Below are positions 1 through 39,973 of a DNA stretch of 39,973 bases, piece by piece. Source of the DNA: a virus; IMG/VR virus record IMGVR_UViG_3300008267_000126, positions 1-39,973 of that record. One strand, 5' to 3'. The translations under genes were made by a program, and so were the position numbers. Under the pieces are notes generated by a model. That model saw only the letters and a program-made list of their open reading frames with translations, ran no database searches and was not told the DNA's origin. The number at the start of each line of letters is the position of its first letter. Position 1 is the first letter of the stretch.

Positions 1-114
1 AATACCAGACTCCGAGGCGAAGAACGTCTGCTCTTCTTTGAGTTGACGATATATCTGGAGTCCTTGGTATTCCTCAATCAACTTTTCGTCAATCATCGGT
101 CCCTTGTCTCGCAA
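1..114. repeat. Terminal direct repeat, left copy (identical to 39860-39973)
   Basis: Bases 1-114 are identical to the last 114 bases of the window. An open reading frame runs uninterrupted through the join, so this is overlap of a circular or circularly permuted map. The unique length is 39,859 bases. It is not evidence of a biological 114-bp terminal repeat, because no packaging site is visible here and the overlap falls inside a gene. Confidence 0.9.
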
Positions 115-216
115 CAGAGTCAAGATGTCTTTCATGGTCTGCGTAACTTTAGCCTCGTCAAGAGACATCGCCGCGTCACGACTTGTCTCAGGATCGGTCA
201 CTCGGTAGAGAGTCAT
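1..216 (-). CDS. Winged-helix DNA-binding protein, N-terminal part (gene crosses the circular join)
   Basis: The ATG at 214-216 opens a 107-residue protein: 72 codons here, and the rest at 39752-39859 once the ends are joined. The N-terminus carries TDPETSRDAAMSL, a signature of small phage winged-helix proteins. A helical segment and a wing-like RTRRSQLVKLGFV (about residues 73-85) follow. The start overlaps the stop of the upstream gene as ATGA, so translation is probably coupled. It is probably a transcription or replication-associated DNA-binding protein; the exact role is unknown. Confidence 0.75.
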   Translation of the reverse strand, partial: MTLYRVTDPETSRDAAMSLDEAKVTQTMKDILTLLRDKGPMIDEKLIEEYQGLQIYRQLKEEQTFFASESGI

Positions 217-650
217 TTCTTGGACCTCCCTACAACGAACTTGAAACTTGCTCCAGTTGGTTCATCGTGCGAGGAGCGTCTAGCCGTAAGATCCTTACCC
301 TCTAACGTGTAAGTAATACGGAAGTCGCCTTTCAAGAATCCGAAACGTCCATCTTCAAGATCCCTGACTTGGCACTGAAACGCTCCCGATCCGTTACGCC
401 AAGTGACGTTACTGTATTCAATAACTAGCTTGGTTCTATCGGTGATTTTGTTTCTGGCAATCCACTCCGGGTAGACGTAATTCTTCCACTCCTCCAGAGC
501 GTCCTCCCAACAACCGAGACAAGAGTCTTCGGGAATCGGATTGCCCTTTTCATCTAACAGGTCGCAATCGTTCTCGTGGTCGTATTTGACGCAAACACAA
601 TCGCTATCCAACGTTAGCTCTATTTTGATTAGCTCTACGATGTCGCTCAC
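213..650 (-). CDS. Hypothetical protein, 145 aa, cysteine-bearing
   Basis: I do not recognise a family. The protein is acidic at the N-terminus, with CVC and CLGC cysteine pairs in the first 50 residues that could bind a metal. A beta-rich C-terminal half follows. It starts with GTG at 648-650, overlapping the stop of the recombinase gene as GTGA, and ends overlapping the start of the winged-helix gene. Its place directly after the annealing protein suggests a part in recombination or replication, but that is only context. Confidence 0.7.
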
Positions 651-1471
651 TTGGACTCCTCCTCTGGCAACTCTTCGGATCTTGCCACGAACAACTGCTT
701 TAAGGTGGTCTCGTCACCGAGAGAGTTTACGAACTTTACGTCTAGTTGACCAGCGTTCTCTGCCCAGAGCTTACGCAACTCTGTCTTAGACTTGGCGTTC
801 GCAATAGCCGAAATGACTTGTTGTCTCTGATCCGGATCTGGATGGACCGGGATCTCTTTGACCTCAACCGGACTAACCTGAGTTGCTGGAGTTAGGACTT
901 TCACGTCTGCTTGCTCCATCTCCTCCGAAGTGTAGATACCCGAGAGGTCGTTCGGGAACGCTTTACGGATCGCAAGAGCCTCGGCAACCTTAGCCAACAT
1001 TACGTCTGGCATCTTGCTCCAAAGTCCTTGAGGTCTTCCGTCCTTACCGATTGGACAATAGCTCGTGATTGTCGCAACGGCGAACAGAGGCTCGGCAAAT
1101 CCAACTCGGTAGACTCCGACTTTGGCCGCTCTCGGCATTTCGGAGGACAACCAAACGTCACGCCAAACTCCGTCCTCTCCACACCAGAGAGGTTGAGTCT
1201 GTCCAGCGTATTCGCCGGATCGTTGAGCGATGATACGGAGTCCGTCAATAGAACTCTGTATCGTGTATCTGTTGTTCCCGGTCCGAGAGTCCCAACGTCC
1301 AATCATGTAGATTTGACGGCTGAACGGATCTAACCCGGTCTTTTGTGCGTAGTGTAAGAACAGAGCTAGGTCTCCTGCTGGAGCATCGCTCAGTCCGATT
1401 TGACGTAGAGCCGCTAACTGAGTTGCGTCCCATGTCTTCTGGTCCGGTTGGACCGCTAGTGTTGTGTTCAC
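647..1471 (-). CDS. bet: Bet/RecT-family single-strand annealing recombinase
   Basis: The protein anneals complementary single strands during phage recombination, usually with an exonuclease partner. The 274-residue product has the Bet-family core: an N-terminal [12 protein letters not shown] segment, [37 protein letters not shown], then [28 protein letters not shown] near residue 180. A variable charged tail ends in [10 protein letters not shown] chose the GTG at 1471 because GGAG lies 6 bases upstream; a longer frame to 1576 would overlap the previous gene and begins with unconserved residues. The likely nuclease partner is the Cas4/RecB-like protein at 32730-33674, in the other transcription unit. 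Confidence 0.88.
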
Positions 1472-1487
1472 CTGTTTCTCCTTATTG

Positions 1488-1826
1488 TTATTTATCTTCA
1501 AATGGATTGTAGACGGAACGTCCGACATCCAGAATCTCGTCAGGATCCATCTGGACGTTGATGCCGATTGAGACATCTAGTCCAACGAACTCTGCCGAGA
1601 CGCATAGTTTATTGTTTCTGGTTGCGTAAGATCCGACAACCAAGACGTGGTTACGGAGCTTGACGGATTGAGCAACCATCTTGGCGAGATCCTCTCGGGT
1701 GAAGATGATTAGTCTCTTGCCGTAGTTACGTCCGGGTGTAGTGATTCGGATCCCAAAGATGGTGCTGTTGGTCAACTCCAACGGAGGATTGACGACTTGC
1801 CCTTGTAGCACGAACGACTTGCTCAC
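1488..1826 (-). CDS. Small OB-fold-like protein, 112 aa, possible second ssDNA-binding protein
   Basis: The product has a pattern like single-strand binding folds: short strands [10 protein letters not shown] and [10 protein letters not shown], then [27 protein letters not shown]. It sits directly before the annealing recombinase, which fits a strand-binding helper. It starts with GTG at 1824-1826 in a GTGA overlap with the gene before. A canonical SSB is encoded separately at 28295-28708, so this would be a divergent or specialised copy. Family assignment is tentative. Confidence 0.6.
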
Positions 1827-2149
1827 GCTATCGCCTCGTAGAGTTCGGTCATGTCTTCTTCGGCTGGAGAGTCCTTGAACAACTCTCTTTTAGGTACGGA
1901 GTTCTGGACGTGATAGAGGTCTATCTTCTGTCTCAGACTGTATGGACTCTGAGGCTCAAGGATTAGACCGAGATTGTAGAGCTCTCGGAGACCATCCCAC
2001 AAGTATTGTGTGTCGTAGCCGTAACGTAGTCCAGTAATCAAGACAACTCTGCCGTTGATGTGAATCCGATTGGAGTAATACGCGTTGCCTCCAGACTTAT
2101 CAAACCAAGAGCGGCTCTCAATAAAGACTGAGCGAATCTTCTCTGCCAT
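1823..2149 (-). CDS. Hypothetical protein, 108 aa
   Basis: No family is recognised. The start MAEKIRSVFIESRSWFDKSGGNAYYSN at 2149 is supported by GGAG about 9 bases upstream and by the stop of a small membrane gene just before it. The middle part (HINGRVVLITGLRYGYDTQYLWDGLRELYNLG) suggests a compact alpha/beta fold. It overlaps the next gene as GTGA, so it belongs to the recombination gene string. Confidence 0.65.
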   Translation of the reverse strand: MAEKIRSVFIESRSWFDKSGGNAYYSNRIHINGRVVLITGLRYGYDTQYLWDGLRELYNLGLILEPQSPYSLRQKIDLYHVQNSVPKRELFKDSPAEEDMTELYEAIA

Positions 2150-2151
2150 CT

Positions 2152-2322
2152 CTACATCTCCCACAACTTGAACAAGAACCAGAAGAGAGCCATGATAAAG
2201 GCTAGGAATACGATTGGAGTTACGAACGGCAATCCCATAAACCACATCCACGCAGTCTGTATAAGACCAAGGATGTAGAGCGTCCCGATTGCTCCAACAA
2301 AGAGTTTCAGAAACGTCTTCAT
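2152..2322 (-). CDS. Small two-pass membrane protein, 56 aa
   Basis: ATG at 2320-2322 overlaps the stop of the upstream gene as ATGA, and TAG at 2152-2154 lies two bases before the next start. The translation has two hydrophobic spans, about residues 5-22 (LKLFVGAIGTLYILGLIQ) and 32-52 (PFVTPIVFLAFIMALFWF), with a short charged end KLWEM. The tight packing makes it a credible gene. A role at the host membrane, for example superinfection immunity or host takeover, is possible but not shown. Confidence 0.65.
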   Translation of the reverse strand: MKTFLKLFVGAIGTLYILGLIQTAWMWFMGLPFVTPIVFLAFIMALFWFLFKLWEM

Positions 2323-2522
2323 GAGCGATCCTCCTCCTCTACGGCGTGAATAAATCGCACCCGGTCAAACTGTTCGTTAGAACTCTCCAACCATTTCAAC
2401 GTCTCTGAGAAGAACTGGTCCCAGATGTCGTCAAGGACCGGGTTCTCAAGCTCTGAGATACGAGAGCGATGTTTGTTTAGGATCTTGGCTAGAGACACGA
2501 AGTCTTTACGATGTAGAGTCAT
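2319..2522 (-). CDS. Conserved small phage protein, 67 aa
   Basis: The product matches a pattern seen in many phage genomes: HRKDFVSLAKIL near the N-terminus, then FFSETLKWLESSNEQFDRVRFIHAVEEED. The function of this family is not known to me. I chose ATG at 2522 because GGAG lies 7 bases upstream; the longer frame would begin inside the previous gene. The stop is ATGA-coupled to the small membrane gene. Confidence 0.7.
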   Translation of the reverse strand: MTLHRKDFVSLAKILNKHRSRISELENPVLDDIWDQFFSETLKWLESSNEQFDRVRFIHAVEEEDRS

Positions 2523-2524
2523 GG

Positions 2525-3387: not shown

Positions 3388-3405
3388 TTTGCTTAGTCCT
3401 GTCTC

Positions 3406-3810: not shown

Positions 3811-3818
3811 CTCTGACT

Positions 3819-5456: not shown

Positions 5457-5464
5457 TTGAGATC

Positions 5465-22563: not shown

Positions 22564-23919
22564 TTATCCTAACGCCTGATGGCAAGACGGGCAGAACTTG
22601 GCTGTCTTCGGTGCTGGCATCCGACAAGATGGACAGAACTGAGCGAGAGCCGCTATACCTAGCATAGAGGACGCTCCCTCCATTAAGTCCGTCATCGCCC
22701 AAACTAAAGCATCAAGTCTGTCTGGTGAGAAGTCTGCGAGTGGAGTGTAGTTCGTCATCTGATCCTCTAGTTGAGGGAACGATCCGACATGGTGAGCTCG
22801 GTGTTGCTCGTAGAGAGATGCGACAGGTTCGGCTCTAAGTAACTTGCCTCGGGTTGCCGTAACTTTCTTGTAAGGGATAAGCGGATCTACTTGTCGGAGG
22901 AGAGCCTCAATCATGTCGCCTCCATTGTTGCCCTCACCGATGATGCGATCCGCTTTATGACGATAGTACGCCTCTACTGCTGTCCTCGCCCAAGCGTCCG
23001 GTCCTGCTCTACGACTCAAGTCCTCTAAGACGTAATAGTGTCCATCGCTCGTAACTCCAGCGACCACGATACCTGTTTCGTCAGAGTCCGGTCTGGACGT
23101 TACGGCAGGATCTATGGCGACTACGATCCGGATCAGAGGAGGACACTCTTGAACCCGGGTTTCATCTAAGAGCGTGTTAGTCCATAGAGCTCCGTCAACC
23201 TCGTCAATGATTTCGCCGTAAAGCTCTTGCCGTCCGAGGCGTGTTCCCTCGTAACGTAGTTTGAGATCCGCTAGAGCCGTTGGAGCCAGATTGTCTGCGT
23301 TGTCAAAGGTTGAACCCCGGGTGACTACGACAGAGCCGTCTGTCCGGGTTGCGAGGGATCGGATAAGGGACGTTGGTCTCGGAGTCGTGGTGACAATAAT
23401 ACGAGGCTTGTCGCCTAGACGTAGACCGAACTGGAGTTGATCCCAAGCATCCGTGTAGCGATAGGCCGCTAACTCGTCACACCAAGCTCCGTGATGTTGA
23501 GGTCCACGAAATCGGTCTGGTTTGTCTGCCGAGAAGAGTTTGATACGAGAGCCGTTAGTGAGGAGGATCTCTCCGAGAGACCTGTTCCAATCCTTGAGCA
23601 TCTTGTAACGTCTCAACACTCCGAGAATCCCGGACTCTCCCTCAGCACAAGTGTCTCTAGCGTCAGCGTAAGTTGGAGCGACTATCGCCCAACGAGTGTT
23701 TGGTTGAGAGATTGCTTGGTCTGCCAGCCACTCGGCCGCCGTCCTAGTCTTCCCTGCTCCACGTCCAGCCAGATAGAGCCAGACGTTCCAATCGCCGTCA
23801 GGAGCTAACTGTTCCGTTCTGGCTTGCTCCACTCTCCAGCGGTAACGGCTTGCCCGGATCCACTGAGCCGAGTAGTCCAATGATGCGTTCAATGTCTTCG
23901 TTGTAGTCGTAGTTGCCAT
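22564..23919 (-). CDS. terL: Terminase large subunit with C-terminal zinc ribbon, 451 aa
   Basis: The ATPase domain has Walker A AGRGAGKT at residues 51-58 and Walker B WCDELAAY near 136. The RNase H-like nuclease has VAIDPAVTSRPDSDETGIVVAG, RIIGEGNNGGDMIEALL and the final DRLDALVWAMTD. The last 25 residues add CPSC and CPSC pairs, a zinc ribbon that most large terminases lack. The ATG at 23919 has AGAGGTGG 9 bases upstream, although this gives a 122-base overlap with the small subunit; a GTG at 23832 is the alternative. Confidence 0.93.
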   Translation of the reverse strand: MATTTTTKTLNASLDYSAQWIRASRYRWRVEQARTEQLAPDGDWNVWLYLAGRGAGKTRTAAEWLADQAISQPNTRWAIVAPTYADARDTCAEGESGILGVLRRYKMLKDWNRSLGEILLTNGSRIKLFSADKPDRFRGPQHHGAWCDELAAYRYTDAWDQLQFGLRLGDKPRIIVTTTPRPTSLIRSLATRTDGSVVVTRGSTFDNADNLAPTALADLKLRYEGTRLGRQELYGEIIDEVDGALWTNTLLDETRVQECPPLIRIVVAIDPAVTSRPDSDETGIVVAGVTSDGHYYVLEDLSRRAGPDAWARTAVEAYYRHKADRIIGEGNNGGDMIEALLRQVDPLIPYKKVTATRGKLLRAEPVASLYEQHRAHHVGSFPQLEDQMTNYTPLADFSPDRLDALVWAMTDLMEGASSMLGIAALAQFCPSCRMPAPKTAKFCPSCHQALG

Positions 23920-24300: not shown

Positions 24301-24831
24301 TCAGGATAAATAGTATCGTATCTGTTCGGCTAATGCTAGTGGCGTGAGGGATCCGTCTAGGTTTATTGCGCCCCAACGTTGAGCGAGGTTGAGGTGTTTG
24401 GTTTGTCTGCCTTTGAGCCAAGTCGGATTCTGTGTGGCGAGGTTGTAGGCTCTGGCTCTAGCGATACGGCGTTCTTGTGCGACTCTAGGATCGGTGTTGA
24501 GGTGGAAGATTATGGTTTCTCCATGGTCTTTGGCTAGACGTATGAACCTGTCGTTCGCTAACCTGTCTCCCTCAGAGATTACGAGTCCGTCTATGCCGTC
24601 TCTATACCAGTTGGCGACTTGGTTGATGACTGCTTGCCCTAGAGTGTCTGTTCCAGAGAACGGAGGTCTATGCCAACCGAGTTGTATTGCCGATCCGTAT
24701 GGTGTGTCGTAAGTGACGTGTTTGACCGGGTGGAGTTCTAACGTGAGTTCCGTCCAAGGTTTCACTAGCTCTGCCGTCAGAGTTGACTTACCAGATCCTG
24801 GCTCTCCCAAGATGATTAGGGTTTTAGTCAT
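24301..24831 (-). CDS. P-loop DNA kinase of the 5-hydroxymethyl-pyrimidine (5-HMUDK-like) family
   Basis: Residues 9-17 are a P-loop (GEPGSGKST). The family signatures HVTYDTPYGSAIQLG, HRPPFSGTDTLG (54-65) and ISEGDRLAND (85-94) follow. In thymidine-hypermodifying phages such kinases phosphorylate 5-hydroxymethyluracil in DNA, making the 5-phosphomethyl base that the next enzyme attacks. At 176 residues it is the usual size. It is the last gene of the modification cassette and overlaps its neighbour by 8 bases. Family membership is recognised from motifs; the substrate base here is inferred. Confidence 0.83.
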   Translation of the reverse strand: MTKTLIILGEPGSGKSTLTAELVKPWTELTLELHPVKHVTYDTPYGSAIQLGWHRPPFSGTDTLGQAVINQVANWYRDGIDGLVISEGDRLANDRFIRLAKDHGETIIFHLNTDPRVAQERRIARARAYNLATQNPTWLKGRQTKHLNLAQRWGAINLDGSLTPLALAEQIRYYLS

Positions 24832-25036
24832 TTCTTTTCTTTTCTTCTGGTATGAACCCGAGTTGTCGTTCTGGTATCGGCTCTTTGTCGGCTATGTGAG
24901 TTATTGAGGCTAGTTCCCCTTGAAACTCTCTAGGTGGTTGGCACTTATGCGTTCTTCGCCACTCTCGTATCAACTTGAGTTCGTCATCTCGGTTGACCTC
25001 TATGGCGGCTCCACAAGAGCAAGTTTCGTTTATCAT
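24824..25036 (-). CDS. Small cysteine-bearing protein in the modification cassette, 70 aa
   Basis: I chose ATG at 25036, which overlaps the FAD-gene stop as TGATG; the longer frame would run back through that gene. The product starts MINETCSCGAAIEVNRDDELK and continues LIREWRRTHKC, giving C-x-C and a later His-x-Cys that could bind zinc. The tail is unstructured (PIPERQLGFIPEEKK). No family is recognised. Its fixed place between oxidoreductase and kinase suggests a carrier or DNA-targeting role. Confidence 0.7.
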   Translation of the reverse strand: MINETCSCGAAIEVNRDDELKLIREWRRTHKCQPPREFQGELASITHIADKEPIPERQLGFIPEEKKRND

Positions 25037-25851
25037 CACAATAGGGATTTCAGCCAGTTTTCTATGGCGGCTGGAGCAATCGCATACCCGGATCGTGCTA
25101 GGTTGCCGATAGACGTAGTTGTCTCGCCAAGTTTCGGAAGAGTTGGTTCGTTGCCTTTGACTCGGGATCGTATTCCTGTGACGACTTGCCAACTTGCTCC
25201 GGGTAGAACTAACTTGGCTGTCTCGGCAACTTGTAGCATCTCCTCTACGCTTCTAATAGCGTCTGCCTCGGTCTTAGCGATACTAGATCCGAGACGTGTC
25301 TCTCCTCGGTTCTCTGCGATTGTTAGCGTATGGTATGGACGGATGTGGTGGATCCTAAGCGGCTTATGGTCTAGGACCGCGTTCGTTGAGATTAGTGTTG
25401 CTCCCCATAAGTCTTCGTGAGGGACAGAGAGGTTGCCTCCGTAAGCTCCTGTTGCGTTTAGGACGGCATCAAACTCGTATTGGTCATCTTGCGTGACGAT
25501 GATGTTGTCGTTGACGAATCGGACTTGCTCGGAGATGTCTGGCGTGACGAGACTTGCCTCCGGGTCAACCAACCACCAATCTTTCTGGAGTTTGACGTTG
25601 GAGTTACGCCAGTGCGAGACGTATGCGTGTTGAGTGATTGCCGATCCCCAAGTCTCGTACCATCGCCACGATTGCTGGATTGTCCCTTGGAGATCCTCTT
25701 TGAACCATTGAGGTCTGATGGTCGCTAAAGCACATCTGGAGGCGGCTTTCCCGGGTGCGTGGTCAAAGACTGTAACGTCCATGCCTAGTTGTCTGCCGAT
25801 TCTGGCCGCTGACGATCCGGCTATACCCGATCCGATAACTCCAAGTTTCAT
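25036..25851 (-). CDS. FAD-dependent oxidoreductase (glycine/D-amino-acid oxidase-like) of the modification cassette
   Basis: The N-terminus has a dinucleotide-binding fold with GSGIAG at residues 7-12 and VTVFDHAP ending the second strand. Later DAVLNATGAYGGNL and the C-terminal VTGIRSRVKGNEP and GNLARSGYAIAPAAIENWL match the DAO-fold ends. In the M6-type pathway an FAD enzyme of this kind cleaves the glycine attached to the base, leaving 5-aminomethyl. ATGA overlap and GGAG couple it to the transferase gene. The 271-residue length is short for a DAO enzyme, which are usually 350 or more. Confidence 0.82.
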   Translation of the reverse strand: MKLGVIGSGIAGSSAARIGRQLGMDVTVFDHAPGKAASRCALATIRPQWFKEDLQGTIQQSWRWYETWGSAITQHAYVSHWRNSNVKLQKDWWLVDPEASLVTPDISEQVRFVNDNIIVTQDDQYEFDAVLNATGAYGGNLSVPHEDLWGATLISTNAVLDHKPLRIHHIRPYHTLTIAENRGETRLGSSIAKTEADAIRSVEEMLQVAETAKLVLPGASWQVVTGIRSRVKGNEPTLPKLGETTTSIGNLARSGYAIAPAAIENWLKSLL

Positions 25852-26753
25852 TCTGGTCTCCTCACTACCAACTTACCTGTTTCTTTGAAGACTCGCTTAC
25901 GTTTCTGGTCTACGCCTGTCCAGCCGTTCAACTCCCCGAGATAGTGGTGAGGGATAACCCGAGCTCTAGCCTCAAACATTACTTGAGCGAGAGGACTTGG
26001 ACACTTGAGGAGGTTCTCCAACATAGCGTCTATGTCCATGCCGAGATAGTAATGACCCTCTGCGAGAGCGTATACGTCACAGAGAGACGTTTCAGCCTCT
26101 TCTATCTTTGCGTCCACTCCAAGTTGCTCTAATTTTCCAAGGAGGTCTATTGAGATCCTATCTAACTCTGCGACATCTTCAAGTCCGTTGCCGTCCGGGA
26201 GGTTGTCGTAGAGTAACGCAAGTCCTTTTCTTGGACCGGAGGAGTGAGCGTGTCCCATGTCGCTTGCTTGTAGAGGAAGGTCGTTTATCTTCCAAAGCAT
26301 TTCTGCCGTCTTGTAGGATGCCCAACGTCCGTTGCCGTAGATTGACTCTAACGCTCCGACAACCCGGTCCCAAGATTGTTGCGGGGAGTCGTGGACTAGG
26401 TATTTACGGATCCAAGCGAGGAGGCCGCCATTGTTTTCTGCGATGGAGACGAGTTCTCCGAGGTGTCTCTCTAGCTTGCTTGGTACTCTATGAGCTCTTC
26501 GTTCTGTCCCGGTCGGCAACTTGAGGAGGTCTAGTCTCGGGATTGTTGGCTCACGATGTTCTTGAAAGACTTGGAGCGTTGAGTTCATGTTGTAGTAAGC
26601 GACATAGAGAAACGTCAACCATACTGCTTGCTCCTCGGAGAGTTTTAGGATCTTACCGAACTCTTTGAGGCAAGGATAAACGTCATCTATTTCGTTGCTG
26701 GCAACTGACTCTGCGTGAAACTGTGCGTAAGTCTGCCAATCTAGGCGACTCAC
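25848..26753 (-). CDS. Amino acid:DNA transferase-like protein (alpha-glutamyl/putrescinyl thymine pyrophosphorylase family)
   Basis: The product shows features I recognise from the aGPT-PPlase/amino-acid:DNA transferase family: LTFLYVAYYN (47-56), YGNGRWASYKTAE (139-151) and DMGHAHSSGPRKGL (165-178). A helical C-terminal half ends FEARARVIPHHYLGELNGW. These enzymes displace phosphate (or pyrophosphate) from a phosphomethyl base with an amine such as glycine or putrescine. It starts with GTG in a GTGA overlap with the dioxygenase gene. Which amine is used cannot be read from sequence; the neighbouring FAD enzyme favours glycine. Confidence 0.8.
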   Translation of the reverse strand: MSRLDWQTYAQFHAESVASNEIDDVYPCLKEFGKILKLSEEQAVWLTFLYVAYYNMNSTLQVFQEHREPTIPRLDLLKLPTGTERRAHRVPSKLERHLGELVSIAENNGGLLAWIRKYLVHDSPQQSWDRVVGALESIYGNGRWASYKTAEMLWKINDLPLQASDMGHAHSSGPRKGLALLYDNLPDGNGLEDVAELDRISIDLLGKLEQLGVDAKIEEAETSLCDVYALAEGHYYLGMDIDAMLENLLKCPSPLAQVMFEARARVIPHHYLGELNGWTGVDQKRKRVFKETGKLVVRRPE

Positions 26754-27613
26754 TTGACCTTTGTTGTGCCTGTTTTGAGATCCTCAGCCATGCCGTCTTC
26801 ACGTTTAGTCCGAGACTCTTTGGCCTTAGCGGTCTCAACTGCGTAAGTGAAACAATCTTTCATGCCTCGGAGAGCGTAATACACGACTGAGTAGCGATAA
26901 GCTCCCTCCTTTTTAGGAGTCATTGGAGTTACGCCATGGACGTACTTGTAACCCGGGAAGAAACTTACCCAACCATCTCTAGCCGTAAAGGTGAAGTCGT
27001 ATTCGGGGAAGTGGAGATAACCTCCAGCCATGTCTCTACGGATTACTGGCATCGCTGACCAAGTTGCGAAGTTGAAGCCGTCTCGGTGATACGGCAGAGT
27101 TGACGACTTGTTGACTACTCCTGAAGTCCAGAGAGCGTCATCGGTCATCCTCCACTCGTTCGCTAACTCTGCGTTCTCCAGATTGTTTACATCGTGGTCG
27201 TAGAGATCCGGTGCGAACTCTTTGAACATTTCGGCGAACTTTTCGGCGAACTTGATAAGGACGGCGTGTTCGTCAGGTTGCTCTAAAGCTAGAGTTGTCG
27301 GACGGCAGGACTCTCTACGTTGAAAGATTTTGCGTGGAGCCATACCGAACGTACGGCTAATGTTCTTTAGTCCGGTTGATTGTCTAATGGTGGATCCATA
27401 CTTGATGTTTAGGACGGCGGCTCTCAATAAAGCAACCTCCTCTTCCATCGGGAAACAAGCGAAGATTGGCTCTTCCGTATCATCGTCAATCCAAATCCCC
27501 GGTCCATGTTGTGGCGGGTTGATGTCCGGGACTTCTGTTCCGACTAGCTCTGTCGCTTGGTCTTCGGTCAGAACTCGCTTGACTCTATGGATCGGTAACT
27601 CACTCAGTTTCAC
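26750..27613 (-). CDS. TET/JBP-family 2-oxoglutarate/Fe(II) DNA base dioxygenase
   Basis: The double-stranded beta-helix core is clear. The iron ligands are H176 and D178 in PYHRDGFN and H226 in YKYVHGVTP, and the 2-oxoglutarate-binding arginine is R240 in AYRYSVVYY. Between them are GGYLHFPEYDFTF and DGWVSFFPG, as in phage TET/JBP proteins. It would hydroxylate the methyl of thymine or 5-methylcytosine in DNA. The GTG start at 27613 has GAGGAGG about 6 bases before it. Sequence alone does not say which base it uses. Confidence 0.87.
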   Translation of the reverse strand: MKLSELPIHRVKRVLTEDQATELVGTEVPDINPPQHGPGIWIDDDTEEPIFACFPMEEEVALLRAAVLNIKYGSTIRQSTGLKNISRTFGMAPRKIFQRRESCRPTTLALEQPDEHAVLIKFAEKFAEMFKEFAPDLYDHDVNNLENAELANEWRMTDDALWTSGVVNKSSTLPYHRDGFNFATWSAMPVIRRDMAGGYLHFPEYDFTFTARDGWVSFFPGYKYVHGVTPMTPKKEGAYRYSVVYYALRGMKDCFTYAVETAKAKESRTKREDGMAEDLKTGTTKVK

Positions 27614-28268
27614 GCGGTGCCTCCTCAGCGTACTCGGTTTCTAGTAGATGGACTATTGCGTCTGCGTTTGAGGCGATGTTGTTCTTGTTTCGGTAGTCCA
27701 ACAACTTCTCCATCAACCAGACGTAAGTTGCGTTCGGGTAATCGGCAATCAGCATACGAGTTGCTTTTTGAGCGTAACGTTCAGCGTACTCCTCCAGACT
27801 TGGAATCGTAAGTGTCCCGCTCTGTCCTGTCTCGCCTTTGCTAACTGCCGAGAACGCCGACACGCTTGGAGTCTCTGACTCCTCTAGTAGAGCTTTCAAG
27901 TCGTCAAGATCCGACTCTTGATACCCGGAGCCATCAAGATCCGGGAGAGTTGAAAGAAGAGCCAAGAGTTTCTCATTGTCATACTCACCTAGATCCGCAG
28001 ACCTGTTGTCTATGGCAACAATCTTGGCGGCCGTCTCCTCGTCAACGTTTATGAAAGTTACGGCAATCGTGTCCCAACCGAGTTGTTGAGCGGCTTGGAA
28101 CGTATGATTGCCAGCAAGGATTTCATTGTTGTTGGCGTTTACGGTGATTGGTTTGTATTGACCATAAGTCTCTAGGGACTTGGCGATTAGTGATACATCG
28201 CTCTTTCTCGGATTGTTCGGGTAAAGATTGAGATCCGATAAAGGTACTTGCTCTACTTTGAGTGTCAT
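27600..28268 (-). CDS. ParB-like nuclease-domain protein, first gene of the modification cassette
   Basis: The N-terminal ParB/Srx-fold domain has VPLSDLNLYPNNPRKSDVSLIAKSLETYGQYKPITV and ILAGNHTFQAAQQLGW (GNHT replacing the usual GxxR). AIDNRSADLGEYD follows. The C-terminal third is helical. Single-domain phage ParB proteins of this kind are often neighbours of base-modification genes and may guide or license modification. It lacks the DNA-binding HTH and dimerisation domains of chromosomal ParB, so it is unlikely to bind the parS site at 32623. Confidence 0.85.
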   Translation of the reverse strand: MTLKVEQVPLSDLNLYPNNPRKSDVSLIAKSLETYGQYKPITVNANNNEILAGNHTFQAAQQLGWDTIAVTFINVDEETAAKIVAIDNRSADLGEYDNEKLLALLSTLPDLDGSGYQESDLDDLKALLEESETPSVSAFSAVSKGETGQSGTLTIPSLEEYAERYAQKATRMLIADYPNATYVWLMEKLLDYRNKNNIASNADAIVHLLETEYAEEAPRETE

Positions 28269-28294
28269 AACTCCTCCTTGGCTCTATTGTAGCA

Positions 28295-28708
28295 CTAGAA
28301 CGGAAGAGAGTCTGCTGGCAGACTTGTTGGAGTCGCTGGCACGAACGGAGAGTCACCCGGAGTGAACGGAGCGTCTGTTGAGAGTTGATCCTTGTCGTGA
28401 CGGATCGCCGTAGAGACAACCTCGGCTTTGATGACTAGGTTCTTGATGGTTGAGCCATCCTTTTCGTAAGTCTCCTGAAAGAGCTCTCCAGATACGATAA
28501 CCCGGGTTCCCTTGACGTATAGGACCTCTGGCAACCGATCCCAAACGGCAACTCTGAACCAAATTGTTTCAGCGTCAATCCACTCGCCGTTCTTCTTCTC
28601 CCGAGGAGTTACGGCTACCGTTAGATTACTTACATACTTGCCCTGTTTGGTCTGACGGACCTCAACGTCTCTTCCGAGATTGCCGATGATTGTTATAGGG
28701 ATGTTCAT
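28295..28708 (-). CDS. ssb: Single-stranded DNA-binding protein
   Basis: This is a typical OB-fold SSB: ITIIGNLGRDVEVRQTKQGKYVSNLTVAV, then WFRVAVWDRLPEVLYVKGTRVIVSGEL. A disordered Pro/Thr-rich linker ends in the tip ADSLPF, equivalent to the acidic protein-interaction tail. At 137 residues it is close to normal length. It coats single strands in replication and recombination. Confidence 0.93.
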   Translation of the reverse strand: MNIPITIIGNLGRDVEVRQTKQGKYVSNLTVAVTPREKKNGEWIDAETIWFRVAVWDRLPEVLYVKGTRVIVSGELFQETYEKDGSTIKNLVIKAEVVSTAIRHDKDQLSTDAPFTPGDSPFVPATPTSLPADSLPF

Positions 28709-29925
28709 TTTGTTTCTTCCTTATCTTTTAGTAGTTGTTTTGGCAGTAAGATCCGTAAAGCGATTTCTGCCTGTTGTGGAACAACGCCGTTGCCAGCGAG
28801 TTTCAACTCTTCGTTTCGGGTCAATCCACAATTGGTTATCCAACCCTCGGGGAGTCCCATCATCCACTCTGTAAATACGCTAGAGAGTCTTTGAGCTCCG
28901 TCTCTGCCATCTGGTTTAGTTGGCGATGGTGCTGGTCTTCCGAGAGTCGCCTCCCATCGTCTGATGGCTGGCTCGTATTTACCCCAAATGTCCGGGTTGT
29001 CTACACCGGATCTAGCAACGTTCGTGAGAGCGACTTGATTGCCGTTGGCGATACGCTCCTCAGCCGTAATGGTCGTATCTTGTTTAGTTCCCTCGGAGGC
29101 TAGAACAGTTGGCAACAACTCCACCTCAACTTTCAAACGTCTATGTGGATTACCCTCGGCAACCTCGGAGGAGGCGGCACCTCGGTTGTCGCTCACAGTT
29201 ACAGTTGGCAATAACTCTACTTGGTCTTCAAGTCTTCCCTTAGTTGCTCCAGACTCTATTTGAGAGCGAGTAGATCCGTTCGCAGAGCTAGTTCGTGGAG
29301 TCCCAAGCAACATTACGTCTTCCCTTAAGTTCCCGGTCGTAGACCGGACAGAGCCTCCCTCAACTCCTCTACGCAACTGACGCTCTAACGCCTCACCCTC
29401 TCTTGCTGGAAGAGAGTCCATCGTGTTAGGAGTCGGAAACAAGTCAATACCCTCCTGCTCCAAACGGATCGCAACTCCGAGACTTGCTCCGGGCATACCC
29501 GAGGTACGTCCAGCCTCGTAATCTTCTCTCCTCTGGAGATAGTCCTCTAAATCTTCATCGTGATTACGGATGTGACCAACAGTCGGAGTTGGAAGAGTCA
29601 CGAGGTCTACAATCTGGTCTCTCAACATGACGTAATGTCCTTTAGCCTCTTTGACTTTTGCCGAGACTGCTCCACCATCACCCTCAACGGCAACTGGAGT
29701 TTGAAACAACTTTTCTTCACCATCCGTCCCGAGACGCAACGATGAAGATCCGTTCCCTCCTGTGCGGAGCTCCAGCATCGGAAGCTCGTACGCCTGTCCA
29801 CCTAGCGTCATACCCGAGACTGGCCAGGTCCCCGAGAACAGCTCCAAGTGCTCGCAATATAGGCTCGCTATCGGTTGCTCCCATACACCACGAACATCGT
29901 TCCAGATGGCTATTGGCTTTAGCAT
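28705..29925 (-). CDS. C5-cytosine methyltransferase, C-terminal part (target-recognition region and motif X)
   Basis: The start region (LFSGTWPVSGMTLGGQAYELP) and the repeated LLPTV/LLGTPRTSS blocks match the C-terminal part of phage Dcm-like methylases. So does the end (FTEWMMGLPEGWIT, then KLAGNGVVPQQAEIALRIL, motif X). It lacks motifs I-VIII, which are on the separate frame 29717-30277. The start at 29925 lies inside that frame, giving about 209 bases read in two frames. Together the two chains could form a two-subunit enzyme. ATGA coupling links it to ssb. Confidence 0.75.
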   Translation of the reverse strand: MLKPIAIWNDVRGVWEQPIASLYCEHLELFSGTWPVSGMTLGGQAYELPMLELRTGGNGSSSLRLGTDGEEKLFQTPVAVEGDGGAVSAKVKEAKGHYVMLRDQIVDLVTLPTPTVGHIRNHDEDLEDYLQRREDYEAGRTSGMPGASLGVAIRLEQEGIDLFPTPNTMDSLPAREGEALERQLRRGVEGGSVRSTTGNLREDVMLLGTPRTSSANGSTRSQIESGATKGRLEDQVELLPTVTVSDNRGAASSEVAEGNPHRRLKVEVELLPTVLASEGTKQDTTITAEERIANGNQVALTNVARSGVDNPDIWGKYEPAIRRWEATLGRPAPSPTKPDGRDGAQRLSSVFTEWMMGLPEGWITNCGLTRNEELKLAGNGVVPQQAEIALRILLPKQLLKDKEETK

Positions 29926-30277
29926 TTAGTATTCCTCTCACATTTTCAATAACTACGAGTTTTGGTTGTAACGTTTCTATTGCTCTAGCGAACTCGCTCC
30001 AGAGTCCACTCCTTGTTCCCTCTTTGAGTCCTGCTCTCTTCCCTGCGACACTCAAGTCTTGGCAAGGGAATCCTCCAGTTAGAATCTCAACAGGTTCAAC
30101 TTGAGTGAAGTCTACGGATCTTACGTCTTTATAGTTTGGTACGTCCGGGTAATGTTTCTCAAGGACCTTGCTTGGAGCTTTATCAAACTCACAATGCCAG
30201 ACAACTCTTCCCCCGGTCACGTTGGAGACGGCGATGTCTAGGCCGCCGTAACCACTAAAGAGCGAACCGATCCTCAC
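29717..30277 (-). CDS. C5-cytosine methyltransferase, catalytic N-terminal part
   Basis: Catalytic motifs are intact: motif I LFSGYGG (6-12), motif IV PCQ with nucleophile C72, motif VI ENV (111-113) and motif VIII HRRERIF (172-178). The protein stops at residue 186, before the target-recognition and motif IX-X region, which are encoded by 28705-29925 in another frame. The enzyme would transfer methyl from S-adenosylmethionine to cytosine. It starts with GTG in a GTGA overlap. A sequencing frameshift is an alternative explanation, but the conserved blocks overlap rather than abut. Confidence 0.82.
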   Translation of the reverse strand: MRIGSLFSGYGGLDIAVSNVTGGRVVWHCEFDKAPSKVLEKHYPDVPNYKDVRSVDFTQVEPVEILTGGFPCQDLSVAGKRAGLKEGTRSGLWSEFARAIETLQPKLVVIENVRGILNAKANSHLERCSWCMGATDSEPILRALGAVLGDLASLGYDARWTGVRASDAGAPHRRERIFIVASRDGW

Positions 30278-30936
30278 GACTTGTCTCGCTCTCTGATGAT
30301 TGCTGACCGGATCTCAATGCTCAAGTCTTCTGGCACCATAGAGCGTTCTTTGCTTGAGGCTCTGCCCTGAGTCCCTCCTGAGTGGTCTCCTCTAGGTGAG
30401 GGAGTGTGGCAAGGATCTCCAGCCTTACACGCTGGTCTAGCCGTCCACCCGGGAACGAATCCCCACAAGTCCGTTGGTTTCATCCGGTCGTCTCCGTATT
30501 GGCAATACGAGACTGTTTGTCTCGGGAGTCCCTCTACAACAGATAACTTACGGAGCATTCCTCTCGGGTTCTCTATGATGAATCCGTATCTTGGACGTAT
30601 AGCCTCAACTAGCATCCGAGCTTGAGCGACTAGCCGCTGATTTAGAATCGCCAACTCTGACTTAGGTTGAGGATTATCTCCTCCACTAATCCAATGAAAC
30701 GGAATAGACGCAACGGAGAACGCCGTACAAGGAGGACTAGCCCAAATGAAGTCCGGTTGTCCGTAAGTCGCTAAGAGGTATTCGGGAGTCAACGTCAATA
30801 CGTCTACGTTCTCGGTTGCCGAGAATTGCGGATCTAACTCAAAGGAGATGATTGTGTCGCCAGCATCGGCGAACGCTTTAGTGCTTGATCCGGTCCCAGA
30901 GAAGAAGTCATAAATAAGTAGTTTAGAGTCGCTCAA
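30274..30936 (-). CDS. Phage DNA methyltransferase-like protein (Dcm-related, compact)
   Basis: The 220-residue product has a Rossmann motif FFSGTGSS (11-18), SPPC with candidate nucleophile C70 (67-70), and IENPRG (121-126). QTVSYCQYGDDRMKPTDLWGF follows, then a Cys/His segment (CKAGDPCH..PRGDHSGGTQG) found in a widespread phage family annotated as DNA cytosine methylase. The start is TTG at 30936 behind the AAGGCTAAACA block. It is distinct from the split enzyme downstream. Confidence 0.78.
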   Translation of the reverse strand: MSDSKLLIYDFFSGTGSSTKAFADAGDTIISFELDPQFSATENVDVLTLTPEYLLATYGQPDFIWASPPCTAFSVASIPFHWISGGDNPQPKSELAILNQRLVAQARMLVEAIRPRYGFIIENPRGMLRKLSVVEGLPRQTVSYCQYGDDRMKPTDLWGFVPGWTARPACKAGDPCHTPSPRGDHSGGTQGRASSKERSMVPEDLSIEIRSAIIRERDKS

Positions 30937-32733: not shown

Positions 32734-33674
32734 TTGACGTTCAATCTTAGTGATGGCTGACCAACCTTTACAGGTAACTCCATCTTCTCGTCAACGTGAG
32801 TCTGGAGAAGTTTCAGGATCTCGTCAGTATCGGGAGTCTTACGTCCAGCGACTTCACTCCACGAAACCTTTATGCCGTCCATTGTAACTCCAGCGAAACC
32901 CTCTAAAGCAGACTTGATGGCATCCTTTTCGGACTCTAGGAGCTTGATTGCCTCATTGACCTCTATGTAACGTTTCGCCGCGTTAGAGGCGTTCTCGTCA
33001 ACAATCGGCGACCCGGACAAGTCTTTACCGATTCCTTGGCAGAGTTTGCCGTAATAGGAGCAATACTTCTGGCAGAACGAGGTTGCGTCTCGCTCCGGAT
33101 CGGGAGCAGTCTCTCGGCTCACTACGTCTTCCAACCACTTTAGAGCTTGGAGAGCAACGTCTTCGTCATACGGCTCTGAGTGAACGATGATGTCGTTCTC
33201 TGTTCCATCTCTCGGGATTCCGACCAGACTTACAGTTTGGACGTGATTACCCGCTTGCTTTAGCAGATAGCCGTAGACCTGAACTTGCCAACGTTTCTGT
33301 TGGCTAACGAACCAATCAACGTTCTTAAGCGTAATGGTCTTCCAATCCACGACCTCGCCATAAAGCGGATCGTAGAAATCTATGGTCGCAGGAGGTAGTC
33401 CCTCAATCTCTACACGATGCTCCAAGAGAGGCATATGGCTCTGATCCCGGTCCTCGTAAGCGAAGAGGATTGCCTCTTCAATAGACTTGTGAATCGCCGT
33501 TCCCATGATTGCTGGAAGAGCTAGAGTCTGATTTGTTTTAGCGTCTCCCTTGCTCATGTGCCAGACTTTACGGCGACAATCTCCGAGGCTAGAGACTCCG
33601 ATGGCGACTTGCCGAGAACGCGGTCTCTCTTGATCGGCTCTGATTAGAGCTTGTATGACTATTTCTTTATCCAT
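32730..33674 (-). CDS. Cas4/RecB-like PD-(D/E)XK exonuclease with four cysteines
   Basis: The nuclease core shows GTAIHKSIEEA (H62), D99, the D110-W-K112 motif (GEVVDWKT) and QVQVYGYLL. Cysteines C33, C201, C205 and C212 match a Cas4/AddB-type iron-sulfur site. It would resect DNA ends to supply single strands for the Bet annealing protein. The C-terminal 90 residues are helical with unknown function. It is ATGA-coupled to the NlpC/P60 gene. Confidence 0.82.
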   Translation of the reverse strand: MDKEIVIQALIRADQERPRSRQVAIGVSSLGDCRRKVWHMSKGDAKTNQTLALPAIMGTAIHKSIEEAILFAYEDRDQSHMPLLEHRVEIEGLPPATIDFYDPLYGEVVDWKTITLKNVDWFVSQQKRWQVQVYGYLLKQAGNHVQTVSLVGIPRDGTENDIIVHSEPYDEDVALQALKWLEDVVSRETAPDPERDATSFCQKYCSYYGKLCQGIGKDLSGSPIVDENASNAAKRYIEVNEAIKLLESEKDAIKSALEGFAGVTMDGIKVSWSEVAGRKTPDTDEILKLLQTHVDEKMELPVKVGQPSLRLNVK

Positions 33675-35617: not shown

Positions 35618-35619
35618 CT

Positions 35620-35880: not shown

Positions 35881-35888
35881 TTTGTATC

Positions 35889-36013: not shown

Positions 36014-36031
36014 GACGGACCCGGGTGGAGC

Positions 36032-37269: not shown

Positions 37270-37273
37270 GTTT

Positions 37274-37618
37274 CTATCCTTTCAGACTTGGAGCAAGAAC
37301 TCTAGTTCCGTTATCCCTAAGCAACCACCACTTGCCAGACCAAGTTTCGTAGACCGGGACTTTTAGTGGATCCTCGTAGACGCTCAACTTCCATCCCTTT
37401 TCTCTGCCTAGCCTCGCAACGTCAGCATCCGACTCCAAGAGTCCGTTGACGATAGAGCAGAGGGTAATGATGTTGCTGAGACGCTCTCGCTCCTTAGATC
37501 CTCCCATGCCTCTATTTATTCGGTGTTGAGGAACGAGGTTGTCTCCAGCCGCTCCACAGTGATAGCATCGGCCGCCGTCTCGCTCCAAGAGCTTACTGAA
37601 CTGTTTGTAGGTCATCAT
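37274..37618 (-). CDS. HNH endonuclease-like protein, 114 aa
   Basis: The product has CYHCGAAGDNLVPQHRINRGMGG, then LSNIITLCSIVNGLLESD, the spacing of phage HNH proteins with a zinc-binding CxxC. The C-terminal half contains YETWSGKWWLLRDNGTRV. ATG at 37618 overlaps the preceding stop as ATGA. In this position it could be a homing, recombination or packaging nuclease. Confidence 0.75.
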   Translation of the reverse strand: MMTYKQFSKLLERDGGRCYHCGAAGDNLVPQHRINRGMGGSKERERLSNIITLCSIVNGLLESDADVARLGREKGWKLSVYEDPLKVPVYETWSGKWWLLRDNGTRVLAPSLKG

Positions 37619-37785
37619 TGAGATCCCCATCCACTTCCTCTAAATGTAACTCCACCGAGTTTGAAGACTCGCTCCAAGACTTCTTTACAAGTATCGCACG
37701 AAACCTCGGTGTCTCGCTCCTCAATAGGTCGCTCCAGTTTCACGATCCGGTCGCAACCCGGACACTTGTAGACGTAGATTGGCAC
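37615..37785 (-). CDS. FmdB-type zinc-ribbon protein, 56 aa
   Basis: Starting with GTG at 37785 behind GGAGGA, the protein reads as PIYVYKCPGCDRIVKLER, then VSCDTCKEVLERVF. It has the CxxC pairs and short C-terminal strand of the FmdB family. The ATG four codons earlier lacks a ribosome site and overlaps more. Role in phage is unknown. Confidence 0.78.
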   Translation of the reverse strand: MPIYVYKCPGCDRIVKLERPIEERDTEVSCDTCKEVLERVFKLGGVTFRGSGWGSQ

Positions 37786-38120
37786 TAGCTCCTCCACATC
37801 AACTCAACTTGCTTGGCTATAACCGCCGTAGCAACCGAGGCAGACTCCAACGTTCTTATCTTGGTCTTCACTCGGTTCAACTCAGCTCTGGCGAGATCCC
37901 GGGAGAGCCTAGCATCAGCGGCCTCTAGTCTTGCCATAGCCTGTTTCTCGGCTATTGTTCCAGCCTCGGATCTCAACATTGCTAGAGCCTCCGTCTTATC
38001 TAGGTGAGCCTCAGCCTCAGCGAGTTTCACCTCGGCATTGAATAGAGCTTCTGGAGCTTTGTCAAGATCCCTCTGGATTCGTTGGAGCTCGGTGATTACG
38101 TTGTCCGGTGTTGGTTCCAT
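37785..38120 (-). CDS. Coiled-coil protein, 111 aa
   Basis: Nearly the whole protein is a charged heptad-like helix (LQRIQRDLDKAPEALFNAEVKLAEAEAHLDKTEALAML and RDLARAELNRVKTKIRTLES). It resembles a family of small phage proteins often near recombination genes. GAGAGG and the GGCTAAACA block precede ATG at 38120. Confidence 0.72.
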   Translation of the reverse strand: MEPTPDNVITELQRIQRDLDKAPEALFNAEVKLAEAEAHLDKTEALAMLRSEAGTIAEKQAMARLEAADARLSRDLARAELNRVKTKIRTLESASVATAVIAKQVELMWRS

Positions 38121-38406
38121 GATTGTTTAGCCTCTCTTCTGATACGATGTGTGTCTTCTCAATACAGTCTCGGTTGCCACAGAGACGTTCACCCGGTCGG
38201 AATAACTTGCCCCATCGGTCCAGAGGGTTATCCATTGAGTCAAACTCGCCACGATGTGGACGGCAGACTCCGTATTTAGTCTTGATTGCTCGGACCGGGA
38301 TTGCCAAGCAGGATCGGCAAAGTATCTCTTGTCCTCGTTCGTGTCTACGTTCATAGAAACTAGCCTCGGACGGATCGTCATAACCGCATCGTAAGCATTG
38401 AAACAA
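38062..38406 (-). CDS. Zinc-binding HNH-like small protein, 114 aa
   Basis: The product has CLRCG and CRSC pairs. CRPHRGEFDSMDNPLDRWGKLFRPGERLCGNRDCIEKTHI follows, a pattern found in phage zinc/HNH-like proteins. It starts with TTG at 38406 because AGGAGG lies five bases upstream. It overlaps the coiled-coil gene by 59 bases. A hairpin lies just before the ribosome site. Confidence 0.7.
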   Translation of the reverse strand: MFQCLRCGYDDPSEASFYERRHERGQEILCRSCLAIPVRAIKTKYGVCRPHRGEFDSMDNPLDRWGKLFRPGERLCGNRDCIEKTHIVSEERLNNHGTNTGQRNHRAPTNPEGS

Positions 38407-38535
38407 GTCTGCCTCCTCTCGTTCTCATTGTAGAACGAAAAGGAGACAGGAGTGTCTACTTCTACGTTCGGAGAAACAGGGGAGAAACGCACGAACGGAG
38501 GACACTCCTGTCTTGTTGCTATCATAGCCGAGAAC
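38407..38535. other. Intergenic structured element
   Basis: No gene is credible here. The stretch contains a nested stem of 13 bp (38444-38456 with 38501-38513) enclosing a 6-bp stem (38465-38470 with 38492-38497). A separate 6-bp hairpin (38420-38425 with 38432-38437) sits next to the TTG-start ribosome site. It could be a small RNA, riboregulator or operator. Confidence 0.65.
38444..38513. repeat. 13-bp perfect inverted repeat with nested inner stem
   Basis: AGACAGGAGTGTC pairs exactly with GACACTCCTGTCT, 44 bases apart. Inside, CGTTCG pairs with CGAACG. No U-run follows, so this is not a plain terminator. Confidence 0.75.
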
Positions 38536-38679
38536 TCAATAGATTCTCAAGCTACGAAGACAAGCTCGGATCTTACGTTTGAGATCCGGTTTGACGAAGA
38601 ATCGCCAGCGATTGACGAGACGTTGACGCTTAGGTGAGCCGATAAACCTCTGTCGCCAGTATCGGATTTTACGCAACAT
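38536..38679 (-). CDS. Small very basic protein, 47 aa
   Basis: The frame from ATG 38679 to TGA 38536 encodes a chain with many Arg and Lys, starting MLRKIRYWRQRFIG and continuing KRQRLVNRWRFF. The start overlaps the stop of the upstream gene by 11 bases, with GGAAG about 9 bases upstream. The basic composition suggests nucleic-acid binding. It is short and could be spurious. Confidence 0.45.
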   Translation of the reverse strand: MLRKIRYWRQRFIGSPKRQRLVNRWRFFVKPDLKRKIRACLRSLRIY

Positions 38680-38866
38680 TGGAGTTTCTTCCGATGTCTC
38701 CATAGACGGACCGGTCCTGTATGATACGTGTCGCCTCTTGGAGTCCTTGCTTGTTAGCAGAGTCCGGGTCTCGCTTAAGTTCAGCCTCTATAATCTTGAG
38801 CAACTCTAGTCGCTCTACTCTCTGCCCTTGACGGCGATAGAAATTACGTACATCTTCAGCAGACAT
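38669..38866 (-). CDS. Small helical hypothetical protein, 65 aa
   Basis: No family is recognised. The product is mostly helix (SAEDVRNFYRRQGQRVERLELLKIIEAELKRD). It starts directly after the stop of the upstream gene, consistent with coupled translation. Confidence 0.65.
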   Translation of the reverse strand: MSAEDVRNFYRRQGQRVERLELLKIIEAELKRDPDSANKQGLQEATRIIQDRSVYGDIGRNSNVA

Positions 38867-39112
38867 TTACACCTCCTGAACCCAAGTCAACGTTTCGTGG
38901 CTTTGAACACAATCGCAGTACGCAACCTCAACAAGAGAGTTCACGACTTCGTCATCGTACTCTTGAGGTAATCCGCAAGGGCAAGGAGCGTCATCGCAGT
39001 CAGCCTCAAACTTCTTCCAAGCCTCCTCCTCGGATCTTGCTTTGATTACGAGAGAGTCACCAGACAAGAAGATAAAGTCCCGAAGAGTCCGACAAGTCTC
39101 TACGTCTAGCAT
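38867..39112 (-). CDS. Hypothetical protein, 81 aa, with CPC and CDC cysteine pairs
   Basis: The N-terminus is MLDVETCRTLRDFIFLSGDSLVIKARSEEEAWKKFE, a small alpha/beta pattern. CDDAPCPCGLP and AYCDCVQS follow as likely metal-binding pairs. No family is recognised. It overlaps a small membrane gene upstream. Confidence 0.65.
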   Translation of the reverse strand: MLDVETCRTLRDFIFLSGDSLVIKARSEEEAWKKFEADCDDAPCPCGLPQEYDDEVVNSLVEVAYCDCVQSHETLTWVQEV

Positions 39113-39218
39113 AGCGTGGACCGGGTTTGTTTATGAGCATTAGGATCGCCGTGAGCAACACGATTACTCCGAGAGCAATCAGCCCTAGTCCGACTATTGA
39201 CCAATCTGCTTTATTCAT
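39057..39218 (-). CDS. Small single-span membrane protein, 53 aa
   Basis: ATG at 39218 has GGGAGG about 5 bases upstream. The product has one strong span, about residues 8-29 (IVGLGLIALGVIVLL), followed by a basic segment (KPGPRYARRRD). It overlaps the next gene by 56 bases, so the C-terminal half is double-coding; the start of the shorter gene lies inside it. Confidence 0.6.
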   Translation of the reverse strand: MNKADWSIVGLGLIALGVIVLLTAILMLINKPGPRYARRRDLSDSSGLYLLVW

Positions 39219-39486
39219 CATCGCCTCCCTGTGTATTGTTGTCCGGTTGATACTGAGGTGGAGTTTCGTATGCCAACTTTTGTATGGCTCGTTCGGCCGC
39301 TCTTAGTCCCTCTAGTCGTAGAGCAGTATCTAACTTCAACCACTCTGGAGCAGAGGAGTCCTTACGGATCTCCTCCACCTCTTCAATCAACTTTAGGATT
39401 CGTTCGTGACTCTCGGTTAGAGCCTCACGCCAACCAGTTTTGAAAGCTAGGTCCTGCCAGACTTTCATGTAGTGTTCGGTCATCAT
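39211..39486 (-). CDS. Hypothetical protein, 91 aa
   Basis: Starting at 39486 in a TAATG overlap, the protein is helical with YMKVWQDLAFKTGWREALTESHERILKLIEEVEEIRK. LDTALRLEGLRAAERAIQKLAYE follows, then a disordered Gln/Asp tail. The longer frame to 39567 would begin inside the upstream gene. Family is unknown. Confidence 0.66.
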   Translation of the reverse strand: MMTEHYMKVWQDLAFKTGWREALTESHERILKLIEEVEEIRKDSSAPEWLKLDTALRLEGLRAAERAIQKLAYETPPQYQPDNNTQGGDDE

Positions 39487-39755
39487 TAGTCTCGCTCTTT
39501 TAGGCAGAAGTCGCATCGCTTGCCGTAGCAATCGCAGTCTCGGTCTCCACAAGGATCGCAAGTACACTCGGACTCTTGCTCAATCTCTGGTTCTTGAGGT
39601 TTCTGGTTCTTTGGCCAAGTAGAGTCATCAAACGGATCTATCTTGTGTTCAAAGAACTTGTTGGAGCAATCTACGCACATAGATAACTCCTCCTGCCAAA
39701 CGTCAGCCTGAACTGGAGCGTCACAATAGATACAAGGTTTAGTTTCTTCGCTCAC
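39486..39755 (-). CDS. Cysteine-rich zinc-binding-like protein, 89 aa
   Basis: The N-terminus has a zinc-ribbon pattern (PCIYCDAPV..MCVDCSNKF). The C-terminus adds a dense cysteine run (CTCDPCGDRDCDCYGKRCDFC), twelve or so cysteines in all. It is ATGA-coupled to the winged-helix gene that crosses the join. Role unknown. Confidence 0.68.
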   Translation of the reverse strand: MSEETKPCIYCDAPVQADVWQEELSMCVDCSNKFFEHKIDPFDDSTWPKNQKPQEPEIEQESECTCDPCGDRDCDCYGKRCDFCLKERD

Positions 39756-39973
39756 TTGCTCAACCTCCAGACAATCGCACTCTTCCCGGATCTAGTTGGT
39801 AGACGGAACCCGGAGTCCTGAACGAACCCGAGCTTGACGAGTTGCGAACGGCGAGTCCTAATACCAGACTCCGAGGCGAAGAACGTCTGCTCTTCTTTGA
39901 GTTGACGATATATCTGGAGTCCTTGGTATTCCTCAATCAACTTTTCGTCAATCATCGGTCCCTTGTCTCGCAA
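39752..39973 (-). CDS. Winged-helix DNA-binding protein, C-terminal part (continues at 1-216)
   Basis: Positions 39752-39859 encode the last 35 residues and stop of the 107-residue protein that starts at 216. The remainder, 39860-39973, duplicates 1-114. The C-terminal residues (RRSQLVKLGFVQDSGFRLPTRSGKSAIVWRL) form the recognition helix and wing. The reading frame continues exactly across the join, confirming circular closure. Confidence 0.75.
   Translation of the reverse strand: MRDKGPMIDEKLIEEYQGLQIYRQLKEEQTFFASESGIRTRRSQLVKLGFVQDSGFRLPTRSGKSAIVWRLSK
39860..39973. repeat. Terminal direct repeat, right copy (identical to 1-114)
   Basis: This is an exact duplicate of the first 114 bases. 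See the left copy; the end is an overlap of a circular map. Confidence 0.9.

Follow-up and report, generated by a model that had tools for sequence, protein, structure and literature searches.

Multispecific C5 methyltransferases of the Bacillus phages SPR, phi3T, rho11s and H2 combine restriction avoidance with self-methylation, and AlwI-type methyltransferases, which are adenine enzymes, recognise the word GGATC. The same word marks the phage genome analysed here, a stretch of 39,973 nucleotides (IMG/VR virus record IMGVR_UViG_3300008267_000126, positions 1 to 39,973; hereafter the window), in which the tetranucleotide GATC occurs almost only as GGATC or its complement GATCC, and which carries a putative DNA modification island at 24301-30936. 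As in the Bacillus phages, a phage C5 enzyme with tandem recognition-like modules is found in a genome apparently depleted of unprotected host sites. Unlike their single-polypeptide enzymes, however, that of the window is divided between two overlapping open reading frames (ORFs), with visibly shuffled modules in the second subunit; it stands beside a TET hypermodification cassette, and its specificities are putative. In gene layout the enzyme resembles M.AquI, where one ORF likewise holds the catalytic motifs and a second ORF, overlapping the first, supplies the recognition region with the final motifs; M.AquI, however, has a single specificity and lacks an array of modules. Cyanobacterial HIP1 (GCGATCGC) is likewise a GATC-centred word tied to DNA methylation, but it is an iterated octamer of host genomes, whereas the word of the window is a 5-mer with little net enrichment and is not HIP1-like.

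For the TET cassette, Rhodococcus phage Tonitrus offers a comparison, as its ParB-like, TET-like, amino-acid/DNA transferase family and 5-hydroxymethyluracil (5-hmU) DNA kinase genes lie side by side (PMC11955845). The window has the same gene neighbours as this thymidine hypermodification (THM) cassette, and thymidine hypermodification is predicted for it from gene content alone. In phages M6, ViI and phiW-14, restriction-resistant sites favour TG/TC, which has been ascribed to the 5-hydroxymethyldeoxyuridine (5hmdU) kinase (PMC6449724). GATC contains TC, in line with this preference, but those phages make 5hmdUTP before replication. The TET protein of the window would instead have DNA as its substrate, and the words implied for its cassette (GGATC, RGATCY) would be much longer than TG/TC.

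An exact count gives 236 GATC in the window, with a G before or a C after in 235 of them (AGATCC 71, GGATCT 51, CGATCC 40, GGATCG 35, GGATCC 22, TGATCC 14, GGATCA 2 and TGATCG 1). A sequence-only reading had reported this restriction to GGATC/GATCC from roughly 220 sites counted by eye, with one TGATCG as the single exception and a share below one half expected by chance; all three statements are borne out, and the exception lies exactly where it had been placed (Table 1). Within genes, 222 of 223 GATC obey the rule, compared with 96.7 (standard deviation 7.2) of 199.9, or ~48%, in a codon-shuffled null that preserves protein sequence and codon usage (binomial p ~1e-68 for the flank excess), and all 21 intergenic GATC do so too. 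In no other 4-base palindrome of the window does one flanking base decide so sharply which sites occur. GATC density is alike within and between genes, and the sites show no clustering at gene starts. The retained set is strand-asymmetric, with 14 TGATCC on the plus strand vs 2 GGATCA.

Codon, amino-acid or host compositional bias could be suspected behind such a pattern, given the skew in codon usage and the placement of most genes on the same strand. However, the shuffles that keep proteins and codons give only 97 of 200, the intergenic sites obey the rule, and near relatives with similar proteins differ completely. In the putative host, an Actinomycetota metagenome-assembled genome (MAG) whose bin includes a 65% terminase relative and which is not necessarily the host of the window, all GATC context classes stand at ~1.0 with no bias, and codon or host-composition causes therefore fail; a WhiB gene in the window also suggests an Actinomycetota host. 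Refuted by the codon shuffles, by the relatives' GATC profiles and by the putative host, compositional bias retains next to no probability. We conclude that the GGATC-only pattern is real and phage-specific. The depletion exceeds codon and protein constraint and is peculiar to the phage, as in restriction-site avoidance.

The rule has also outlasted considerable divergence. The nearest relative, G023 (IMGVR_UViG_3300032225_000555), aligns with the window over 34.8 kb at 75.5% DNA identity; 76 GATC are shared, 129 occur in the window only (all 129 as GGATC) and 44 in G023 only (39 as GGATC). The GGATC rule has persisted across many independent site gains and losses. Two further records, L002 and L003, belong to the same species as the window (100% DNA identity), and a megablast search found no near-identical annotated phage.

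Among relatives collected by terminase (80) and by TET (80), the use of GATC is strikingly discrete. Several have zero GATC in 5-40 kb; L005-L007, close relatives under GATC pressure, have none at all, GGATC included; G002, G008 and G015 hold GATC at 1.6-2.9x in every context group; and the window and G023 retain essentially only GGATC. A larger set of 302 non-redundant phages includes 71 in which GATC outside GGATC has an observed/expected ratio (O/E) < 0.4, and the O/E of GGATC in these is bimodal, being < 0.1 in 30 and at least 0.6 (mostly near expectation) in another 30. The sequence-only reading had suggested that related phages and the host be compared, and the outcome is an unbiased putative host and relatives that differ, with all-or-none loss or with other GATC words.

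Our explanation, which is probably correct, is that GATC restriction by the host is avoided and that GGATC/GATCC is spared through the phage's own modification. Hosts of the phage lineage would restrict GATC, so that unprotected GATC is purged, and the phage would modify GATCC on at least one strand, that is, in GGATC/GATCC, where sites are then tolerated; both the modification of the spared sites and its origin in the island at 24301-30936 we infer. Of the corresponding earlier proposal, a GATC-cutting host with phage protection at GGATC, the GATC-directed pressure is upheld by the many relatives with zero GATC, and the sparing of one word by the bimodal O/E of GGATC and by a rule held through independent gains, but this does not extend to a particular modifying enzyme. 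Restriction-site avoidance is already known, and the present case is best read as one gated by phage self-modification.

A host nuclease that recognises the degenerate palindrome HGATCD, avoided by the phage with no modification needed, would leave the same trace: HGATCD is its own reverse complement, and the GATC sites that fall outside it are precisely those retained. Other flank-defined losses (RGATCY and GGATC in G018, WGATCW in L009 (G006)) and retentions (SGATCS in L318, mainly TGATCC in L027) occur as well. We nevertheless regard such a nuclease as unlikely: we know of no enzyme with HGATCD specificity, L005-L007 lose GGATC too, and the GGATC-sparing pair, the window and G023, bears a large modification island.

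This island (Table 1), which is entirely on the minus strand and also carries an SSB-like gene, brings together TET/JBP, amino acid:DNA transferase (ADDT) and DNA kinase in one operon, in the gene order TET-ADDT-FAD-kinase-terminase. The window and G023 share the split methyltransferase, MT2, TET, ADDT, FAD and kinase genes. The two methyltransferase ORFs overlap by 209 bases out of frame, and both look conserved in relatives; the same overlap is present in G023, G009 and G008, and an overlapping methyltransferase pair is annotated in the isolated Arthrobacter phage Leona (genes 41/42). Andrew, another Arthrobacter phage isolate, is likewise annotated with a pair of methylase genes that are neighbouring or overlapping.

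Table 1. Features of the window discussed in the text
Feature	Position	Strand	Remarks
Large terminase	22564..23919	-	query for relatives and basis of the control tree
P-loop nucleotide kinase (Ploopntkinase3)	24301..24831	-	PF18751, 5.7e-21; likely hydroxymethyl-pyrimidine DNA kinase
FAD-dependent oxidoreductase (DAO)	25036..25851	-	PF01266, 3e-10
ADDT, amino acid:DNA transferase	25848..26753	-	PF18724, 2.8e-22
TET/JBP dioxygenase	26750..27613	-	PF12851, 2.1e-9
ParB-N-domain protein	27600..28268	-	adjoins TET in relatives listed
C5 methyltransferase, second subunit	28705..29925	-	phrog_1008 DNA methyltransferase, 1.6e-58
Module N44 (LPTVLASEGTKQDTTITAEERIANGNQVALTN...)	28987..29115 (approximate bounds)	-	candidate GGATC recognition module
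C5 cytosine methyltransferase, catalytic N-terminal subunit	29717..30277	-	PF00145, E=6.8e-39, profile positions 1-163 of 324
MT2, second small C5-methyltransferase-like protein	30274..30936	-	phrog_757
TGATCG, sole exception to the rule	hexamer start 33631; GATC 33632..33635	.	within Cas4/PDDEXK-like gene

The second subunit consists of a header, six 'L[P]TP..' modules and a C-terminal part (WMMGLPEGW...GNGVVPQQA). Its counterparts in relatives have 3-7 modules starting L-x-T-P, which are shuffled like cassettes across ~125 distinct proteins. Of 113 phages, just two carry module N44, and these, the window and G023, are also the two that show the GGATC-only pattern; N109 is carried by the window only, and N11 is compatible with GGATC protection. 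A scan for N44 homologues returned distant modules only, and L323, L348 and others give N44 no support. N2 had been suggested as the GGATC recogniser by 64 proteins, a result not replicated in the 113 phages and at odds with L398 and L432, which have zero GATC, and N7 and N16 are ruled out by L203, L204 and L229.

Two routes to modification at GATCC may be considered. In the first, one module (N44 is the best candidate, with N11 and N109 possible) or MT2 would direct 5-methylcytosine to GATCC, and TET and the downstream enzymes may elaborate that 5-methylcytosine. In the second, the TET and kinase cassette would hypermodify thymine in GATC, preferring certain flanks, and the published attribution of sequence preference to the 5hmdU kinase makes this plausible (PMC6449724, where multi-specificity of phage methyltransferases is cited as well). 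An asymmetric word of 5 bases that leaks at one site of 236 looks more like the work of a methyltransferase, and we therefore weight the first route slightly over the second without deciding between them. Bearing on the first, GGATC is kept by all 11 phages that carry MT2 and are depleted in GATC outside GGATC, vs 24 of 60 others (Fisher 1.6e-4).

Several observations weigh against this explanation. The MT2 association is not controlled for lineage, and the two carriers of N44 are related, so that the link of N44 with GGATC is not independent. Three of the six modules of the window, N2, N7 and N16, are ruled out as general GGATC protectors by carriers with zero GATC. A Dam-type gene of G023 has no counterpart in the window, which also gives no match to the adenine methyltransferase families PF01555, PF02086 and PF05869. 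Finally, the link between kinase and RGATCY described below comes down to no more than 4-5 independent changes when placed on the terminase tree, where it does not reach significance, and 7 of 28 kinase carriers are without RGATCY.

With regard to abundance, the several-fold GGATC enrichment of the sequence-only reading holds in part. Against the codon null, 232 GGATC stand where 103 are expected, an excess of 2.2-2.3x; a null that also respects the phage's other avoided words expects 173 and brings the excess down to 1.34x, a value that is approximate because the sampler of synonymous sequences under 113 avoided words mixes to a limited degree (~5 accepted swaps/codon). Most of the GGATC excess is thus displacement by avoidance of other words. 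TCGA, TGCA and CGACG/CGTCG are at zero in the window, and GCGC, CGCG, TTAA and several 5-mers are very scarce, which makes it a heavily word-purged genome.

An excess that is mostly displacement is weak support for GGATC as a selected functional word (in DNA binding, packaging, replication or repair), with the other contexts lost for a separate reason. In favour of such a word, AGATCC (1.9x) and CGATCC (2.1x) are still enriched over the constrained null, in which GGATCC (0.86x) and GGATCA/TGATCC (0.40x) are not, and no hexamer ranks above AGATCC in a pool of nine relatives lacking a methyltransferase (675 vs 165), where it turns up in every codon frame as well as between genes; in one of the relatives, G012, it reaches 3.9x in the constrained null. 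An iterated GATC-containing word in phage L170, described below, can be added to these. Yet the total excess is small, the sites are neither placed at gene starts nor of different density in and between genes, and the absence of all other GATC contexts would stay unexplained. We consider a functional word improbable.

The GATC word favoured differs between relatives. RGATCY is enriched 2.7-5.3x in nine near-complete relatives in which no methyltransferase was found and in the MAG-derived L435 (G010, G011, G012, G013, G014, G016, G017, G019, G021 and L435; mostly AGATCC and AGATCT), and absent or strongly depleted in G018, G029, G034 and G035; the same word is thus enriched at the DNA level in some TET phages and avoided by others. 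The kinase is present in 10 of 10 RGATCY-enriched vs 0 of 8 RGATCY-avoiding near-complete phages, and over 47 loci the comparison is 21 of 28 vs 2 of 19 (raw Fisher 1.7e-5). As sole determinant, the kinase was rejected given the few independent changes and several kinase phages with zero GATC. A scan for close kinases returned the window's own species only.

The stretch from TET to terminase serves as a slot that is filled in different ways: some phages have ADDT-FAD-kinase there, some only the kinase, and others have proteins that match no Pfam family, some of which resemble glycosyltransferases by eye. Slot clusters S4, S5+S6, S8 and S9+S10 come from L005, L006, L008, L098, L138 and relatives; S9 is ADDT, and the other clusters tested have no Pfam match. 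We put forward, as a tentative possibility on the doubtful side, that the phage family carries interchangeable sequence-specific modification modules hypermodifying chosen GATC words (GGATC, RGATCY, GATC). The modules would be the recognition units shuffled in the split methyltransferase, the exchangeable tailoring enzymes of the TET-to-terminase slot, or both, and the chosen word would show in the genome as the one context of a host-cut site that survives or is enriched.

Sequence specificity has been stated as unknown for 5hmdU phages (PMC6449724), and the pattern offers a direct test of it for TET/kinase hypermodification or for modular methyltransferases. If the protected word is indeed the modification word, genomes of uncultured phages would reveal, from sequence alone, what their DNA-modifying enzymes recognise, and the restriction pressure of unknown hosts would be legible in the same way.

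Three other genomic word patterns deserve description. G002 (L004/L085/L282-L283), with a terminase 87% identical to that of the window, is ~6x richer in GATC than random sequence (24 per kb), whatever the context, and almost lacks CCAG, ACGT, CATG, GCGC, GTAC, TGCA and TTAA; it carries TET and kinase, with no ADDT or FAD seen and no C5 methyltransferase found. L170 (IMGVR_UViG_3300032236_000759) has 31 GGATCC in its whole 34.6 kb record, and within the 20.5 kb read 20 of 20 lie in the 10-mer CCGGATCCGG, at ~1 per kb inside and between genes; no other GATC was seen in the coding sequence tested, and a modular methyltransferase is present. L170 is thereby nearer to HIP1 than the window is, and its 10-mer is absent from the window as an exact word. 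CTAG occurs 154 times in the window, with ACTAGT, TCTAGA, GCTAGC and CCTAGG all at 0, i.e. in no palindromic hexamer context. Lastly, of the associations between modules and words across the 113 phages, which are lineage-confounded, that of N7 with GAAGA slightly exceeds the permutation limit (z 4.2 vs 3.8) and little else is safe; GAAGA is not depleted in N7 carriers, with a pooled O/E of 1.34 vs 0.90, and the word is nearly removed in many related phages without N7.

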